64,000 bases of DNA from NCBI RefSeq assembly GCF_022662015.1, contig NZ_JAKMCM010000001.1:930001-994000 (forward strand), in the 5' to 3' direction. A model generated the notes under the pieces. That model worked only from the letters and a program-made list of their open reading frames with translations. It did not search any database and was not told the DNA's origin. The position numbers were made by a program, and so were the translations under genes. This document shows, piece after piece, positions 20,294-25,301 of this stretch (positions are counted from its first letter, which is position 1; the number at the start of each line of letters is the position of its first letter). Source of the stretch: Aestuariivivens sediminicola. Lineage in GTDB: Bacteria; Bacteroidota; Bacteroidia; Flavobacteriales; Flavobacteriaceae.

Positions 20294-21364
20294 CTACTGC
20301 TTTGCCTTTAAAACCTCAAAAATATTCCTCAAATCCTTTTTGTATGGTAAGTGATCCGCACGTCCTTTTTTAAAGATATCGTTGCTGTTTCCCTGTCCTT
20401 TGCGAAGGGCTTTTTGTTCTTCATAAGGTAAAGCATGAATTTCTTTACACGTTTCTGAACAGCAATTATTCATTTCTTCCTTGCATTCATCGCACTGAAT
20501 AAATAATAAATGACAGGCCTCATTTGCACAATTGGTATGCACATCAAATGGTTTACCACATTGATGACAATTTGCAATGATATCATCGCTAATTCGCTCT
20601 GCACGCCTATCATCGAATACAAAGTTCTGGCCTAAAAACTTATTTTCAATACCCTGTTCCTTCACCTGTCTTGTATATTCAATAATACCGCCTTCTAACT
20701 GATATACATTCTTAAATCCTTTATGTTTAAAATAGGCACTGGCCTTTTCACATCGGATGCCTCCTGTACAATACATAACAAGATTCTTGTCTTCCTTGTA
20801 TTCTTTTAAATCCGCCTCAATAATATCCAAAGATTCTCTAAAGGTATCGACATCCGGGGTTATGGCATTTTTAAAATGACCTATTTCACTTTCATAATGA
20901 TTTCGCATATCAACCAGCACCGTATTGTTATCTTCAATAAGAGCATTAAAAGCATTGGCGTCAACATGAATTCCCTTGTCTGTTACATCAAAAGTTTCAT
21001 CGTTCAATCCATCTGCGACAATTTTGTGTCTAACCTTAATTTTCAACTTTAAAAACGATTTGTTATCCTGTTCAACAGCAATGTTTAATCGAACACCTTT
21101 TAAAAAAGCAATAGTATCTAAATGTTCTTTGAAGGCCTTGAATTGATTTGCAGGAAGAGATAATTGTGCATTTATACCTTCATGGGCTACATAAATTCGC
21201 CCTAAAACATCCATGGCGTTCCAGGTAATAAAAAGATGATCCCTGAAAATTTTCGGATTGTCGATTTTAGCGTATTGGTAAAAAGAAAGAGTTAATCGAC
21301 GCTCTCCGGATTTATCTATAAGCGCAGCTCTTTCTTCAGCACTTAATTTATTGTACAGTTGCAT
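20294..21364 (-). CDS. trhO: tRNA uridine(34) hydroxylase, rhodanese family (TrhO/YceA)
   Basis: The 356-residue protein has an N-terminal alpha/beta domain, a rhodanese domain (about 140-240) with MYCTGGIRCEKASAYFKHKGF carrying the active-site Cys, and a C-terminal cysteine-rich zinc-ribbon-like part (CHQCGKPFD, CANEACHLLFIQCDECKEEM). This is the layout of TrhO, which hydroxylates U34 of tRNAs with O2 on the way to 5-methoxyuridine. A good promoter lies just upstream at 21406-21433. It may be transcribed separately from ricT because of the terminator at 20145-20172. Confidence 0.93.
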   Translation of the reverse strand: MQLYNKLSAEERAALIDKSGERRLTLSFYQYAKIDNPKIFRDHLFITWNAMDVLGRIYVAHEGINAQLSLPANQFKAFKEHLDTIAFLKGVRLNIAVEQDNKSFLKLKIKVRHKIVADGLNDETFDVTDKGIHVDANAFNALIEDNNTVLVDMRNHYESEIGHFKNAITPDVDTFRESLDIIEADLKEYKEDKNLVMYCTGGIRCEKASAYFKHKGFKNVYQLEGGIIEYTRQVKEQGIENKFLGQNFVFDDRRAERISDDIIANCHQCGKPFDVHTNCANEACHLLFIQCDECKEEMNNCCSETCKEIHALPYEEQKALRKGQGNSNDIFKKGRADHLPYKKDLRNIFEVLKAKQ

Positions 21365-21405
21365 GCTATACTAATGTGTTAAGAGTTAAAGAATATGTTA
21401 GAATG

Positions 21406-21433
21406 CAAAAGTACAATATTTAAGTGAAAACAA
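21406..21433 (-). promoter_or_regulatory. Promoter of trhO
   Basis: On the minus strand TACTTTTG (21413-21406) is a perfect TAnnTTTG -7 box. It has TTG at 21433-21431 as the -33 box, with a 17-nt spacer. The predicted leader to the ATG at 21364 is about 37 nt. The -33 box begins where the hairpin terminator's T-run ends. Confidence 0.6.
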
Positions 21434-21468
21434 TAAAAAAGCACTTTAGTAAACATTAAAGTGCTTTT
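21434..21468 (-). terminator. Strong hairpin terminator between divergent genes
   Basis: AAAAGCACTTTA (21437-21448) and TAAAGTGCTTTT (21457-21468) form a perfect 12-bp stem with an 8-nt loop. On the minus strand it is followed by further T residues (six in a row in total). Neither trhO nor recA ends here; both start away from this point. It therefore implies another transcript, from about 21572 on the minus strand. Confidence 0.75.
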
Positions 21469-21572
21469 GAAACCAAAGTGGTTACATAACATAACCAGAT
21501 ATTAAAGATAGTCACCGCGGCATTACAGCCGTCATTATGAACTCCATGACAACTGATTTACCTAATATTTTC
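21434..21572 (-). ncRNA. Candidate small RNA or leader-peptide transcript
   Basis: The 329-nt divergent gap holds, on the minus strand, a promoter-like TTG-N21-AATTTTTG, then hairpins GTCAT/ATGAC (21531-21550), CGGC/GCCG (21518-21531) and TGGTTA/TAACCA (21479-21497), then the 12-bp terminator. The predicted RNA is about 140 nt. It contains a short frame from ATG at 21547 to a stop at 21512, encoding MEFIMTAVMPR; the frame is open upstream to a GTG at 21574. I do not recognise an Rfam family. It may be a structured RNA, a tiny peptide gene, or both. Confidence 0.5.
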
Positions 21573-21576
21573 ACAG

Positions 21577-21608
21577 CAAAAATTTCCCGGTTTATATATG
21601 AGATACAA
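21577..21608 (-). promoter_or_regulatory. Promoter-like element of the candidate small RNA
   Basis: On the minus strand TTG (21608-21606) and AATTTTTG (21584-21577) are separated by 21 nt. The -7 box differs from TAnnTTTG only at its first base. It points toward the hairpin array and away from recA. Confidence 0.4.
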
Positions 21609-21635
21609 AATGTTTAAAAAGGTTGCGTTATAAAA

Positions 21636-21666
21636 TTGTATTCTGAAAAAACTTATATTACTTTAG
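21636..21666 (+). promoter_or_regulatory. Promoter of recA
   Basis: TTG (21636-21638) and TACTTTAG (21659-21666) are separated by 20 nt, one mismatch from TAnnTTTG. The predicted start of transcription lies about 20 nt before the recA ATG at 21694. Confidence 0.5.
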
Positions 21667-21693
21667 CAAGTATAACAAGAGAATTAGAATTAA

Positions 21694-22689
21694 ATGAGTG
21701 AAAAAGAAGCAAAATTAAAAGCCCTTAAACTTACTTTAGATAAGCTGGATAAGGCTTATGGTAAAGGTACGGTAATGAAAATGAGCGATGCCGCTGTTGT
21801 TGATGTAGATTCCATCTCTTCAGGTTCCTTAGGATTGGATATTGCATTAGGTGTAGGCGGTTACCCCAGAGGAAGAGTTATTGAAATTTATGGCCCTGAA
21901 TCGTCCGGTAAAACTACCTTAACCCTACATGCCATTGCTGAGGCTCAAAAAAATGGAGGTATAGCGGCTTTTATTGATGCCGAACATGCATTTGACAGGT
22001 TTTATGCTGAAAAACTGGGTGTTGATATTGACAATTTAATTATTTCACAACCCGACAATGGAGAACAGGCACTTGAAATCGCGGACAATCTTATTCGCTC
22101 AGGAGCTATAGACATCGTTATTGTTGATTCCGTTGCTGCTTTAACACCAAAGAGCGAAATAGAAGGTGAAATGGGTGATTCCAAAATGGGACTTCATGCG
22201 CGTTTAATGTCACAGGCTTTAAGAAAATTGACAGCATCTATTAGTAAAACTAACTGTACGGTAATATTCATTAATCAATTACGTGAAAAAATTGGGGTGA
22301 TGTTTGGAAATCCCGAAACGACCACAGGAGGTAATGCTTTGAAATTTTACGCCTCTGTAAGATTAGATATCAGACGTTCAACCCAGATAAAAGATAGCAA
22401 TGGTAATGTATTAGGTAACAAAACCCGGGTTAAAGTGGTGAAAAATAAAGTAGCACCTCCATTTAAGGCCACAGAATTTGATATTATGTATGGAGAAGGC
22501 ATATCGAAAGTTGGGGAAATATTAGATCTCGCGGTTGACTACGAAATTATCAAGAAAAGTGGATCGTGGTTTAGTTATGGAGAAACTAAGCTTGGTCAGG
22601 GTCGTGATGCGGTTAAGGCCCTGATTAAAGATAACCCCGAACTTATGGATGAATTGGAGGAGAAAATTAAAGAGCTTCTTAAAACATAA
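21694..22689 (+). CDS. recA: Recombinase A
   Basis: The 331-residue protein is RecA, the ATP-dependent strand-exchange protein of homologous recombination and the DNA-damage response. Walker [10 protein letters not shown] is at 67-75. [29 protein letters not shown], the L2 region with [26 protein letters not shown], and the polymerisation motif near the front are all present. The C-terminal tail is short, as usual in Bacteroidota. It is a single-gene unit with its own promoter and terminator. Confidence 0.98.
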
Positions 22690-22728: not shown

Positions 22729-22793
22729 GCTTTAAGCGCAACCTTTTCGAACTTGTGACATCTATTTGAAAACAACAATCGAAATTAAAGTTT

Positions 22794-23201
22794 ATGAAAA
22801 ATATATTTGTTTTTAGCCTTATACTAAGCCTATTGGTGTCTTGTAGTATCGGTGATGATTCGGTTAACTACGATCTTGAGATTTTACCAGTTGAAAGTGT
22901 TGATATACCTGATGAATTTGAGTTTGGACAGACCTACCCGATTACTGTGTATTATTACAGACCAACGACTTGTCATGCTTTCAGAAATTTTTATTACGAA
23001 AGAGATGATAATGTTAGGACTGTTGCCCCAATTACATATGTCGATACAAAAAACAATTGTTCAGACCTTACAGATAATTTAGTGGAGGCCACATTTAATT
23101 TTATTGTTACGAGAAATGGTTCATATATCTTTAAATTTTGGCAAGGAGAAGATTCGAGTGGTGAAGATCTATTTTTAAGCATCGAAGTCCCTGTTTTGTA
23201 A
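22794..23201 (+). CDS. Small lipoprotein, unknown
   Basis: The 135-residue protein begins with a lipoprotein signal peptide whose lipobox is LLVSC (Cys17). The mature part is rich in aromatic and beta-prone segments (FEFGQTYPITVYYYRP, GSYIFKFWQG) and has conserved-looking cysteines (TTCHAF, NNCSD) that could form a disulfide. No family is recognised. It lies 46 nt before the sigma-factor gene and may belong to the same envelope response. Confidence 0.7.
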   Translation: MKNIFVFSLILSLLVSCSIGDDSVNYDLEILPVESVDIPDEFEFGQTYPITVYYYRPTTCHAFRNFYYERDDNVRTVAPITYVDTKNNCSDLTDNLVEATFNFIVTRNGSYIFKFWQGEDSSGEDLFLSIEVPVL

Positions 23202-23206
23202 ATTTG
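23199..23206 (+). promoter_or_regulatory. Possible -7 box for the sigma-factor operon
   Basis: TAAATTTG is a perfect TAnnTTTG match that overlaps the stop codon of the preceding lipoprotein gene. No TTG is seen at the right distance, so the match is incomplete. Confidence 0.35.
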
Positions 23207-23247
23207 ATACATAATAAATGAACCTTAACAGTTAATGCGTTTTTAAT

Positions 23248-23790
23248 TTGAGTTTAAACCAACTCATAGAACATTGTAAAACGAATGATACTAAAGCACA
23301 AGAGAAATTATATAGACTCTTTTCGGGTAAATTATTTTCTATTTGCTTAAAGTATTCGAATAATTATGCCCAAGCTGAAGACAACCTGCAAGATGCTTTC
23401 TTAACCATTTTCGAAAAAATTGGTCAATTTAAAGGTAAAGGATCATTTGAAGGTTGGATAAAGCGCATTACGATTAATACCGCTTTACAACGTTACAGGA
23501 CAGAGAAGGTGTTCAATATAGTTAATGAAAATGAAGTTGAAGATTTTGAAATAGAGGTTAATGGCGATGCTATTTCTTTAGATTACTTGTTAAAAGCCAT
23601 ACAAGATCTGCCTGACAGGTACCGCCTGGTTTTTAACCTCTATGTTTTAGATGGATATTCCCATAAAGAGATTGCAGATATGCTGAATATTACCACTGGA
23701 ACCTCGAAATCGAATTTATCAAGAGCGCGGCATATTTTAAAGCAGGCTGTTGAAAATTATACATTAAATGAAAACATTCAGTCATTATAA
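23248..23790 (+). CDS. RNA polymerase ECF-type sigma factor
   Basis: The 180-residue protein has sigma-70 region 2 (about 20-90, with YAQAEDNLQDAFLTIFEKIGQFKGKGSFEGWIKRITINTAL) and region 4 (about 120-170, LPDRYRLVFNLYVLDGYSHKEIADMLNITTGTSKSNLSRARHIL). It is an ECF sigma factor of Bacteroidota type. The start is TTG at 23248 (MSLNQLIEHCK): the frame is closed by TAA at 23233 and no ATG is available. It is followed at once (TAATG) by a membrane-anchored barrel protein that probably controls it or responds to it. Confidence 0.92.
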   Translation: MSLNQLIEHCKTNDTKAQEKLYRLFSGKLFSICLKYSNNYAQAEDNLQDAFLTIFEKIGQFKGKGSFEGWIKRITINTALQRYRTEKVFNIVNENEVEDFEIEVNGDAISLDYLLKAIQDLPDRYRLVFNLYVLDGYSHKEIADMLNITTGTSKSNLSRARHILKQAVENYTLNENIQSL

Positions 23791-25301
23791 TGGGTGAAAA
23801 AAAACATATAGATAGATTATTTCAGGAAAAATTCAAGGATTTTGAAGCTCATCCTAGAGACGAAGTCTGGAGTACTATTGAATCGCGATTGCATAAAAAG
23901 AAGAAAAAACGTCGTGCTATCCCGCTTTGGTGGCGCTATGCCGGTGTTGCCGCCCTTTTGGTTTTATTACTTGGCATTGGTAATTTAATTTTTAATTCAG
24001 GTAGTACTATTAAGGCTCCTTCTTATCAGGTAGGAGATACCAACTCCAGCAATGATGATCAAACAACGGGTAACACGGGAGATTCGGATTCAAAAAAAGA
24101 TCAAAACATTGAAGTCATAGTAAATTCTGCTGATGAGATCGCTATCGATGAAGTAAAAGAACTCAAAAATAATAACGAAGCATCAGATAATATAGCTCCT
24201 TTTAAAAACACAAATCCAATCACAGAAGAAAACCTAGACTCTAAAAAAAATATTACCAGCAATAAGGAAGCTGTGAAGCCCAGTGATTTAAATACGGTCC
24301 TAAAGGATGACAATACTTTAATTTCAAAGGACAACAACATAGCGGCACAAAAGGAACTTGAAACTAAAGGAGATGATAAGACTGATGCAATGGATCGGAT
24401 TCAAAAGGAGGCGGCGAACTATAAAACTTTTAAATCGGATTCTTCTGTTGTGGTTAAAACTAATCCCAAAGATGACGCCACTGAAGATAAAAACGACATT
24501 TCTATTGAAGATTTAATAGATAAGGATATAAATGAGCTCATTGAAGAAGAGAAATTTAGCAGGTGGAGTGTTGCCCCAAACGCTGCGCCTGTTTATTTCA
24601 ATAGTCTGGGAACAGGATCTTCGATTGATCCCCAATTTAATAACAACGCAAAAACGGGCGAATTGAATATGAGTTATGGTATTAAAGCCAGTTATGCCAT
24701 CAATAAAAAAATACGCATTCGTTCGGGCATCAACAAAGTTCGTCTAGGTTACAATACAAATGACGTTGTAATTTACCAATCGATCGGATTTAGCGAAAAC
24801 GCAGTTGGCGCTTCTTTATCTAATATTAAATCAAATTCTAATAATTCCGTATCATCCTTAAGTTCAGTGCGTTCATCGTCATTTGCCAGTGCTGAAAATA
24901 TTAACTTAAAAAGTAATGCCGGCTTACTATCTTCGGTCACTAATACCACTATTAATCAAGAATTTGGCTATATAGAAATTCCTTTGGAAATACAATACAC
25001 CATTCTGGATAAAAAGTTCGGGCTTAATCTGATTGGTGGATTTAGTTCCTTTTTCCTGAGTGAAAATAAAGTGTATTCTGAGAGTACAGATTCCAGGACA
25101 CTATTGGGTGAAGCGAATAATTTAAATAATGTAAGTTATAGTGCTAATCTGGGGCTTGGTTTGAATTATAAATTATCTAAAAAATTAGATTTTAATTTAG
25201 AACCCTTGTTCAAATATCAAATAAACACCTTCAGTAATACGTCCGGTAATTTTAATCCTTATTTCATAGGTGTTTATACTGGGTTTGCAATAAAATTTTA
25301 G
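23790..25301 (+). CDS. Single-pass membrane protein with C-terminal outer-membrane beta-barrel-like domain
   Basis: The 503-residue protein has a cytoplasmic N-terminus (about 1-45, KFKDFEAHPRDEVWSTIESRL, then a lysine/arginine cluster), one membrane helix at about 49-70 and a long low-complexity linker rich in Asn, Asp, Lys and Ser (about 75-255). A C-terminal region (about 260-503) has alternating amphipathic strands (SYGIKASYAINKKIRIRSGINKVRLGY, YEIPLEIQYTI-like segments) ending in aromatic GVYTGFAIKF, like a porin-type barrel. The N-terminal part occupies the place of an anti-sigma factor. Function is unproven. Confidence 0.75.
   Translation: MGEKKHIDRLFQEKFKDFEAHPRDEVWSTIESRLHKKKKKRRAIPLWWRYAGVAALLVLLLGIGNLIFNSGSTIKAPSYQVGDTNSSNDDQTTGNTGDSDSKKDQNIEVIVNSADEIAIDEVKELKNNNEASDNIAPFKNTNPITEENLDSKKNITSNKEAVKPSDLNTVLKDDNTLISKDNNIAAQKELETKGDDKTDAMDRIQKEAANYKTFKSDSSVVVKTNPKDDATEDKNDISIEDLIDKDINELIEEEKFSRWSVAPNAAPVYFNSLGTGSSIDPQFNNNAKTGELNMSYGIKASYAINKKIRIRSGINKVRLGYNTNDVVIYQSIGFSENAVGASLSNIKSNSNNSVSSLSSVRSSSFASAENINLKSNAGLLSSVTNTTINQEFGYIEIPLEIQYTILDKKFGLNLIGGFSSFFLSENKVYSESTDSRTLLGEANNLNNVSYSANLGLGLNYKLSKKLDFNLEPLFKYQINTFSNTSGNFNPYFIGVYTGFAIKF

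Follow-up and report, generated by a model that had tools for sequence, protein, structure and literature searches.

A recA-linked RNA unit with a predicted ECF-type promoter in Aestuariivivens sediminicola and its relatives in the Flavobacteriaceae

In Aestuariivivens sediminicola (Flavobacteriaceae), the divergent genes trhO and recA lie 329 bp apart within the 64,000-nt stretch of DNA analysed here (the window, to which all positions refer; the genome measures 3.65 Mb); the gap is 324 bp in the congener Aestuariivivens marinum (G378, L077). Judged from its sequence and from that of its relatives, the minus strand of this gap appears to hold a terminated transcription unit that has homologues in many Flavobacteriaceae. 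We propose that the unit is probably the RNA output of a very small, recA-linked regulon of an extracytoplasmic function (ECF) sigma factor; ancestrally it would have been dual-function, specifying a peptide and an RNA, and here it would be RNA only. The order along the minus strand is ECF-type promoter, 5′ motif, hairpin P1, second hairpin, terminator and trhO promoter:

21601-21627, minus strand: ECF-sigma-type promoter, CGCAACC (-35 like), 16-nt spacer counted from GCAACC, ATCT (-10 like); from sequence
21569-21588, minus strand: 5′ motif GGGAAATTTTTGCTGTGAAA (relatives: GGGAAAnTTTTGCTATGAAA); from alignment with relatives
21512-21574, minus strand: relic of a peptide frame, GTG start, 20 codons, VKILGKSVVMEFIMTAVMPR; the homologous region of relatives encodes ...ALGVSV..NSNCKADGG
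21518-21563, minus strand: P1 hairpin CAGUUGUCAU/AUGACGGCUG, outer helix GGUA/UGCC; from folding and covariation
21479-21497, minus strand: second hairpin UGGUUAU-GUUAU-GUAACCA; from folding, placed as P2 of relatives
21437-21468, minus strand: P3, intrinsic terminator of 12 bp, T-rich tail to about 21430; from terminator scan, fold and covariance model
21434-21568, minus strand: match of covariance model R1 (P1-P2-P3), 59.2 bits, E 3.5e-9 in the window
21406-21433, minus strand: trhO promoter TTG-N17-TACTTTTG, Bacteroidota sigma-A type, directly 3′ of the terminator
22737-22762, plus strand: the ECF-type promoter repeated with identical 16-nt spacing, preceding the ECF operon

Results

Sequence and structure are conserved in relatives

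We searched 397 genomes of the family with a 161-nt DNA query and found matches in 31 of them (own genome included), nearly all across the terminator. Among the 29 non-self loci, 13 had trhO and recA on either side and one had recA alone; 15 had neither, because the terminator sequence (AAAAGCACTTT) is common. Aligned trhO-recA gaps revealed a second conserved block, CGCAACCTTTTT-N-GCATCTA followed by GGGAAAnTTTTGCTATGAAA. A strict pattern made of promoter and 5′ motif was found in 54/397 genomes of the family and in none when the pattern was reversed, and recA was present in 29 of 30 loci retrieved with it; the window itself falls outside this strict pattern (GCTGTGAAA, ATCTC).

The alignment from P1 to the terminator (A3) comprises 35 sequences, L087, L092 and L123 having been left out for their incomplete ends; four relative loci had no terminator by the rule applied. 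On these 35 rows, a four-helix structure of 41 pairs had 90.1% of its cells paired and was changed on both sides at 27/41 pairs. None of 500 shuffles reached any of these measures, and slid versions of the structure were paired at 29-53%. The inner P1 helix (helix 2) showed two-sided changes in 9 of its 10 pairs. An earlier, sequence-only reading of this DNA had proposed a separate minus-strand unit with its own terminator and hairpins, to be checked by covariance analysis of the gaps of relatives and staked on conservation in close relatives. The gaps contain covarying hairpins that belong to one RNA family, sequence and structure are both conserved, and the unit itself is upheld by sequence, synteny and covariation kept in relatives.

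A covariance model (R1) was built from the 35 rows, of which the window is one. In its own genome, the unit is the only strong match to R1, the next one scoring 38.5 bits. Over the 397 family genomes, 136 had a match at E <= 1e-3, a tally that includes chance matches below about 50 bits. recA adjoined all 30 of the best matches and 18 of 20 weaker ones checked (48-91 bits), L199 (51 bits) and L200 (48 bits) being the weaker matches away from it. Across the order, matches at E <= 1e-5 were found in 9 of 395 genomes, a single one of them outside the family (G488, 49 bits); this match looks like chance; it lies away from recA, on a different contig, and the recA of that genome has no such unit upstream. 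The search of Rfam with Infernal that the sequence-only reading had suggested returned no family of Rfam 15 at its gathering score in the 64-kb window or in 13 relative loci, all matches being sub-threshold.

Folding of the minus strand at 21430-21590 gave -40.1 kcal/mol (z-score -2.9; 0/200 shuffles as good) and bore out P1 and the second hairpin among the upstream hairpins first noticed by eye. The P1 segment, picked by its position in relatives, folded at z -4.1 (0/500 shuffles as good), and that of L198 at z -3.1. For the whole stretch from the 5′ motif to the terminator z is -1.6 in the window, so much of the overall stability is that of the terminator. This 12-bp hairpin with its T-rich tail does stand between two divergent gene starts, as had been noted, and neither trhO nor recA ends at it. 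It is the sole terminator-like site in 21000-22200, where 0.9 +/- 1.0 are expected; the scan by itself is not significant, and the site becomes so because it is conserved. The trhO promoter starts after the terminator, again as first read, and 78 of 80 named loci have a TAnnTTTG element no more than 130 nt upstream of trhO. The 5′ motif, written as GCTAT[GA]A[AG], is found in 85/121 promoter-bearing distinct loci and is probably an RNA motif, since its ATG has been lost in some species.

Two copies of a predicted ECF-type promoter flank recA

The pattern CGCAACCTTTT-N{8,16}-ATC has two sites in the window, where none is expected, at 21602-21627 (minus strand) and 22737-22762 (plus strand). With the T-run included, CGCAACCTTT-N13-ATCTA at no more than one mismatch occurs at exactly two sites in the 3.65-Mb genome, and these flank recA; two mismatches add 11 further genomic sites, against 11 in the reversed control. 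Both copies are present in all four genomes of the window's genus. According to PMC8103513, AAC at -35 and CGT at -10 mark the classical ECF promoter, and autoregulation is common among ECF sigma factors. The AAC in the -35 box and the copy before the sigma operon fit an ECF-type promoter; the GCATCTA box does not.

Transcription from this promoter would start near 21594 (minus strand), and an RNA of about 160 nt would be expected. The sequence-only reading had placed the unit at 21434-21608 and its RNA at about 140 nt; the reading of a short unit is upheld, and the unit extends beyond those coordinates, to 21627. The sigma-A promoter proposed for it (TTG-N21-AATTTTTG) was dropped: the letters are present, but AATTTTTG is not conserved, being replaced in relatives by AAATCTTG or AAACAATG, and the ECF-type element upstream fits better.

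We scored the element in 80 named loci that were retrieved via TrhO and hence not chosen for it; 65 could be scored, 9 being incomplete and 6 lacking recA. Forty-six of the 65 carry the element upstream of recA, and in all 46 the sigma gene lies downstream of recA; the 19 loci without the element have the sigma gene in 11 cases and lack it in 8 (Fisher p 1.5e-5, on rows that are not independent). Near-miss elements are found in at least three of the 11 sigma-bearing, element-less loci (the spacer is 15 nt in L080 and L106, and L088 has GTCT). In the large genus g128, probably Flavobacterium, five genomes have no element, peptide or sigma gene beside recA. Of 151 distinct sequences upstream of recA, collected in part for the presence of the unit, 124 contain the promoter element.

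Many relatives encode a small peptide across P1

In relatives, P1 often lies within a frame of 28-30 amino acids with the consensus MKFFKKTxxxNALGVSVxVxxNSNCKADGG, and the peptide is found in 64 of the 124 promoter-bearing loci just mentioned. When lengths of 26-32 amino acids were allowed, 60 distinct peptides were of 28 (n=11) or 30 (n=49) residues solely. Their ends are DGG in 55/60 and EGG in 5/60, [DE]GG being a selection criterion; 55/60 also have a Cys six residues from the end, a feature for which they had not been selected. For 31 distinct frames, chosen as 30 codons ending in [DE]GG, the ratio of nonsynonymous to synonymous change (pN/pS) was 0.41 in frame, compared with 1.05 and 0.72 off-frame, and third positions varied most, chiefly in codons 22-30 (entropy 0.83 vs 0.23 and 0.24). 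The second hairpin of relatives begins in the last peptide codons and contains the stop codon.

Distant peptides (L104, L110 and L133 of Aquimarina; L187-L189, L194 and L195) have almost unrelated middles and keep the MK start and the [DE]GG end, the stop codon again standing where the second hairpin starts. The idea that the peptide is in general a lipoprotein or a membrane helix was rejected: most members look hydrophobic by eye, but those of Aquimarina (MKFLKKVVRHNLDGCTITKISNCIVEGG) do not, and 5/60 have no Cys. One or two peptides were used as queries against Pfam and NCBIfam, without a useful match, the best NCBIfam score being 12.8 bits against a cut-off of 31.

The frame is broken in the genus of the window

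In the window, most of the N-terminal half of the frame is gone and the remainder is frame-shifted. The peptide MEFIMTAVMPR (ATG at 21547) of the sequence-only reading can be spelled from the letters; the alignment with relatives exposes it as debris, the unconserved tail of the broken 20-codon frame, and it was rejected as a conserved peptide. None of four genomes of the genus has a frame ending in [DE]GG, and the frames that open from the same start codon (20 codons in the window, 19 in A. marinum, 37 in G753 and 14 in G219) are mutually unlike. Promoter and terminator are kept in all four, and P1 is recognizable in three. Compared with L087, the P1 of the window differs in 5 of 8 pairs, three by two-sided changes, and all 8 still pair.

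Among frame-broken loci outside the ten rows used for the count of P1 pairs (see Discussion), L091 (z -3.9) and L085 (z -3.8) have a strong hairpin at this place and L067 and L068 have another hairpin; on folding, no P1-like hairpin was seen in L003, L013, L065, L088, G753 or a short class of relatives described below. A tree of RecA and TrhO was made for 74 loci, of which 23 have the peptide, 32 have the promoter without it and 19 lack both. It requires a minimum of seven changes between the peptide and promoter-only states, so loss of the peptide seems frequent.

The ECF operon and other RNAs at the same place

The genes on either side of the unit, and the operon downstream of recA, are:

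20294-21364, minus strand: trhO; NCBIfam NF001133 above cut-off
21694-22689, plus strand: recA, neighbour of the unit; library match
22794-23201, plus strand: first gene of the ECF operon, for a small lipoprotein-like protein of 135 aa; matches no family, synteny kept in many relatives
23248-23790, plus strand: ECF sigma factor, 180 aa; Sigma70_r2, Sigma70_r4_2 and TIGR02937 above cut-off
23790-25301, plus strand: probable anti-sigma or membrane protein, 503 aa; assigned by position and eye

The whole ECF operon (22737-25301) is syntenic in many relatives. Its 503-aa protein matches no Pfam family and scores 13 bits with the NCBIfam anti-sigma model against a cut-off of 100; by eye, its N-terminal part is basic, its C-terminal half is outer-membrane-like, and it has one hydrophobic segment. 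L209, one of the five g128 genomes without a sigma gene beside recA, retains a homologue of the lipoprotein.

Besides promoter, 5′ motif and terminator, the short class usually carries ACTAACTC. In this class GACTAACTC is unpaired or nearly so (for example in L005, L011, L064 and L094); in some members of the peptide class, this CTAACTC holds the stop codon and is paired within the second hairpin. CTA[AG]CTC occurs in 27/121 promoter-bearing loci. A different RNA stands at the same place in relatives of the Muricauda/Maribacter/Arenibacter type (L107, L124, L131, L134, L204, L206 and L207), often with CTAACTC near its 5′ end and then a hairpin around GGCCATTTCC...GGAATGGCC that encloses GCTATGAAAAAGAAA or a variant. 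Motifs of the CTAACTC and GCTATGAAAAAGAAA types recur in the other RNA classes, in changed order.

Discussion

What could be the function of this unit? We suggest that the ECF sigma factor, once freed by its signal, would transcribe its own operon and the unit RNA, which would make the RNA the product of a very small stress regulon linked to recA. The transcript would end at the intrinsic terminator before trhO. The ancestral transcript was probably dual-function, combining a peptide with a structured RNA; in the genome studied here the RNA alone would remain and would most likely work through its unpaired 5′ motif (UUUGCUAUGAAA), by base pairing or by binding a protein, a mode of action that we liken to that of the sigma-E-dependent RNAs of enterobacteria. 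The sequence-only reading had left the choice between a regulatory RNA, a leader peptide and an unknown small gene: RNA and small gene both find support, in one and the same transcript in relatives, and a leader of trhO does not.

A more specific proposal would make a dual-function RNA family the main output of the recA-linked ECF sigma factor in Flavobacteriaceae. Its peptide of 28-30 amino acids, with a nearly invariant C-[KR]-x-D-G-G end, would have its stop codon within the second hairpin, which would couple translation and RNA folding; lineages such as that of the window and Winogradskyella would have shed the peptide and kept the RNA, a natural separation of the two functions. In this full form the proposal seems to us possible rather than probable.

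A number of observations weigh against the regulon proposal or parts of it. On the promoter side, the looser pattern GCAACC-N16-ATCT, without the T-run, has 8 genomic sites (1 when reversed). Five of the 6 sites other than the two copies beside recA fall within frames of 231-560 codons; the remaining one, L147 (G000:C10:915555-915580), stands outside long frames, has no T-run and is a possible third promoter of the same sigma factor. The -10-like box, GCATCTA in relatives and ATCTC in the window, differs from the classical CGT, and it is from motif and synteny that we infer the dependence of the promoter on the sigma factor. On the peptide side, the frames had been selected by length and C-terminal letters, and the ratio was therefore recomputed without the C-terminus: over codons 2-24 of 47 frames pN/pS was 0.56 vs 0.99 and 0.70 off-frame, a modest contrast with one of the two, so the N-terminal part appears to be under weaker constraint. 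On the RNA side, the short-class relatives (L005, L007, L011, L031, L064, L070, L094 and others) have promoter, 5′ motif and terminator and neither P1 nor peptide. The second hairpin of the window is unlike the P2 of relatives (GGCUAACUCGU/ACGAGUUAGUC) in sequence, and P2 is not recognizable in it. P1 is weak in the congener L017 (z -2.4) and in L099 (z -1.2) and is not recognized in the congener G753, and folding from the 5′ motif to the terminator is unremarkable in the four genomes of the genus (z -1.6, -0.8, -0.8 and -1.0).

Could the unit then be a decaying relic, a peptide gene that lost its frame in this genus and left a functionless promoter, hairpin and terminator behind? The broken frame in 4/4 genus genomes, the frequent loss of the peptide on the tree, the missing P2 of the window and P1 of G753, the unremarkable folding of the whole region and the several relatives that also lack P1 all agree with this. 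Yet all four genomes retain the promoter and the terminator, the P1 of the window folds beyond chance and pairs at 8/8 positions in spite of its 5 differences from L087, and the frame-broken L091 and L085 keep a strong hairpin. Compensation was also seen in ten frame-broken rows (three of the window's genus and seven of Winogradskyella, with L017 and L099 included despite mismatches), which had been picked because P1 could be seen in them: 77 of 80 cells of the 8 pairs were paired, with two-sided changes at 7/8 positions. Shuffled partners gave a mean of 62.7 and 0/2000 values as high, in shuffles that ignore relatedness. We consider it likely that in Winogradskyella the RNA stayed under selection once the peptide was lost; for the genus of the window, this is suggested but not proven. 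We regard the relic explanation as unlikely.

The unit might instead be an attenuated leader of trhO, with ECF-dependent transcripts stopping at the terminator unless read-through puts trhO under ECF control, the peptide of relatives being a leader peptide. The unit does point at trhO, its terminator stands just before the trhO promoter, and in relatives the second hairpin starts at the last codons and holds the stop codon. Moreover, yceA (= trhO) of Flavobacterium psychrophilum is listed with an ECF-type (SM6) start site in PMC9723704, which leaves room for a link between ECF control and trhO. However, trhO has its own TAnnTTTG promoter in 78/80 named loci, the unit stays beside recA without an adjacent trhO in L104, L197 and L208, and by eye the terminator varies without matching upstream changes, so no antiterminator is apparent; the window also has no conserved peptide frame, the conserved one being broken and an unlike 20-codon frame open. 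This explanation therefore strikes us as improbable. Still less do we expect a small-protein gene and nothing more, with hairpins that stabilize an mRNA and a diverged frame (GTG at 21574, 20 codons) that is still translated in the window. The coding signal in relatives and the frames open from the 5′-motif start (20 codons in the window, 19 in A. marinum, 37 in G753) speak for it, but the frames of the genus are unlike one another, none ends in [DE]GG and that of G219 stops after 14 codons, which makes it very unlikely.

If the regulon proposal is true, the unit would be a Bacteroidota counterpart of the noncoding arm of the sigma-E response, based on an RNA that is unrelated and arranged around recA; its regulon would have two promoters detected with confidence and a possible third. 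That the peptide was lost repeatedly while promoter, terminator and often the hairpin stayed would amount to a natural experiment on which half of a dual-function RNA matters, and the nearly fixed C-terminus of the peptide offers a concrete handle for biochemistry. Both the small gene and the RNA family are absent from Rfam 15, Pfam and NCBIfam; the window is not a member of the C-[KR]-x-[DE]-G-G peptide family, having no intact frame of 28-30 amino acids.

How does the unit compare with known RNAs? None of the titles or abstract openings among the matches listed in the open literature describes this RNA or peptide. Rfam families in general were set aside, as none reached threshold. The Bacteroides small RNA BTnc231 (RF04180) resembles the unit in layout and gave 26.8 bits (E 0.0007) across the strong relative L108, far short of its gathering score (80.4). 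The terminator hairpin matches best, and BTnc231 is not among the matches of the window. The 6S-Flavo RNA (RF01685), a flavobacterial structured RNA of similar size, was rejected because it has no match at the unit and the genome's single copy lies on another contig (C16:146994-147120, 97 bits).

The short RNAs RybB, MicA and MicL of enterobacteria, sigma-E-dependent according to PMC8103513, are by description the short RNA output of an ECF sigma factor, as is proposed for the unit; they differ in that the unit adjoins recA and the sigma operon and that its relatives encode a peptide in the RNA. By sequence, the unit shares its element with the sigma factor's own operon, co-occurs with the sigma gene and has a terminator and a short layout; its -10 box is not the classical CGT. 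It is a candidate ECF-dependent RNA. By description, the closest published kind is Rfp11 of F. psychrophilum, a small RNA of the same bacterial family that is listed in PMC9723704 with an ECF-type (SM6) start site; there, structure and conservation in other species are reported for both Rfp11 and Rfp18. None of the five genomes of the probable genus Flavobacterium has the unit beside recA; Rfp11 and Rfp18 are compared with it here by their published description. The unit seems to represent a new and apparently undescribed RNA family of a known kind, the ECF-controlled small RNAs, unusual in its dual content and its linkage to recA.
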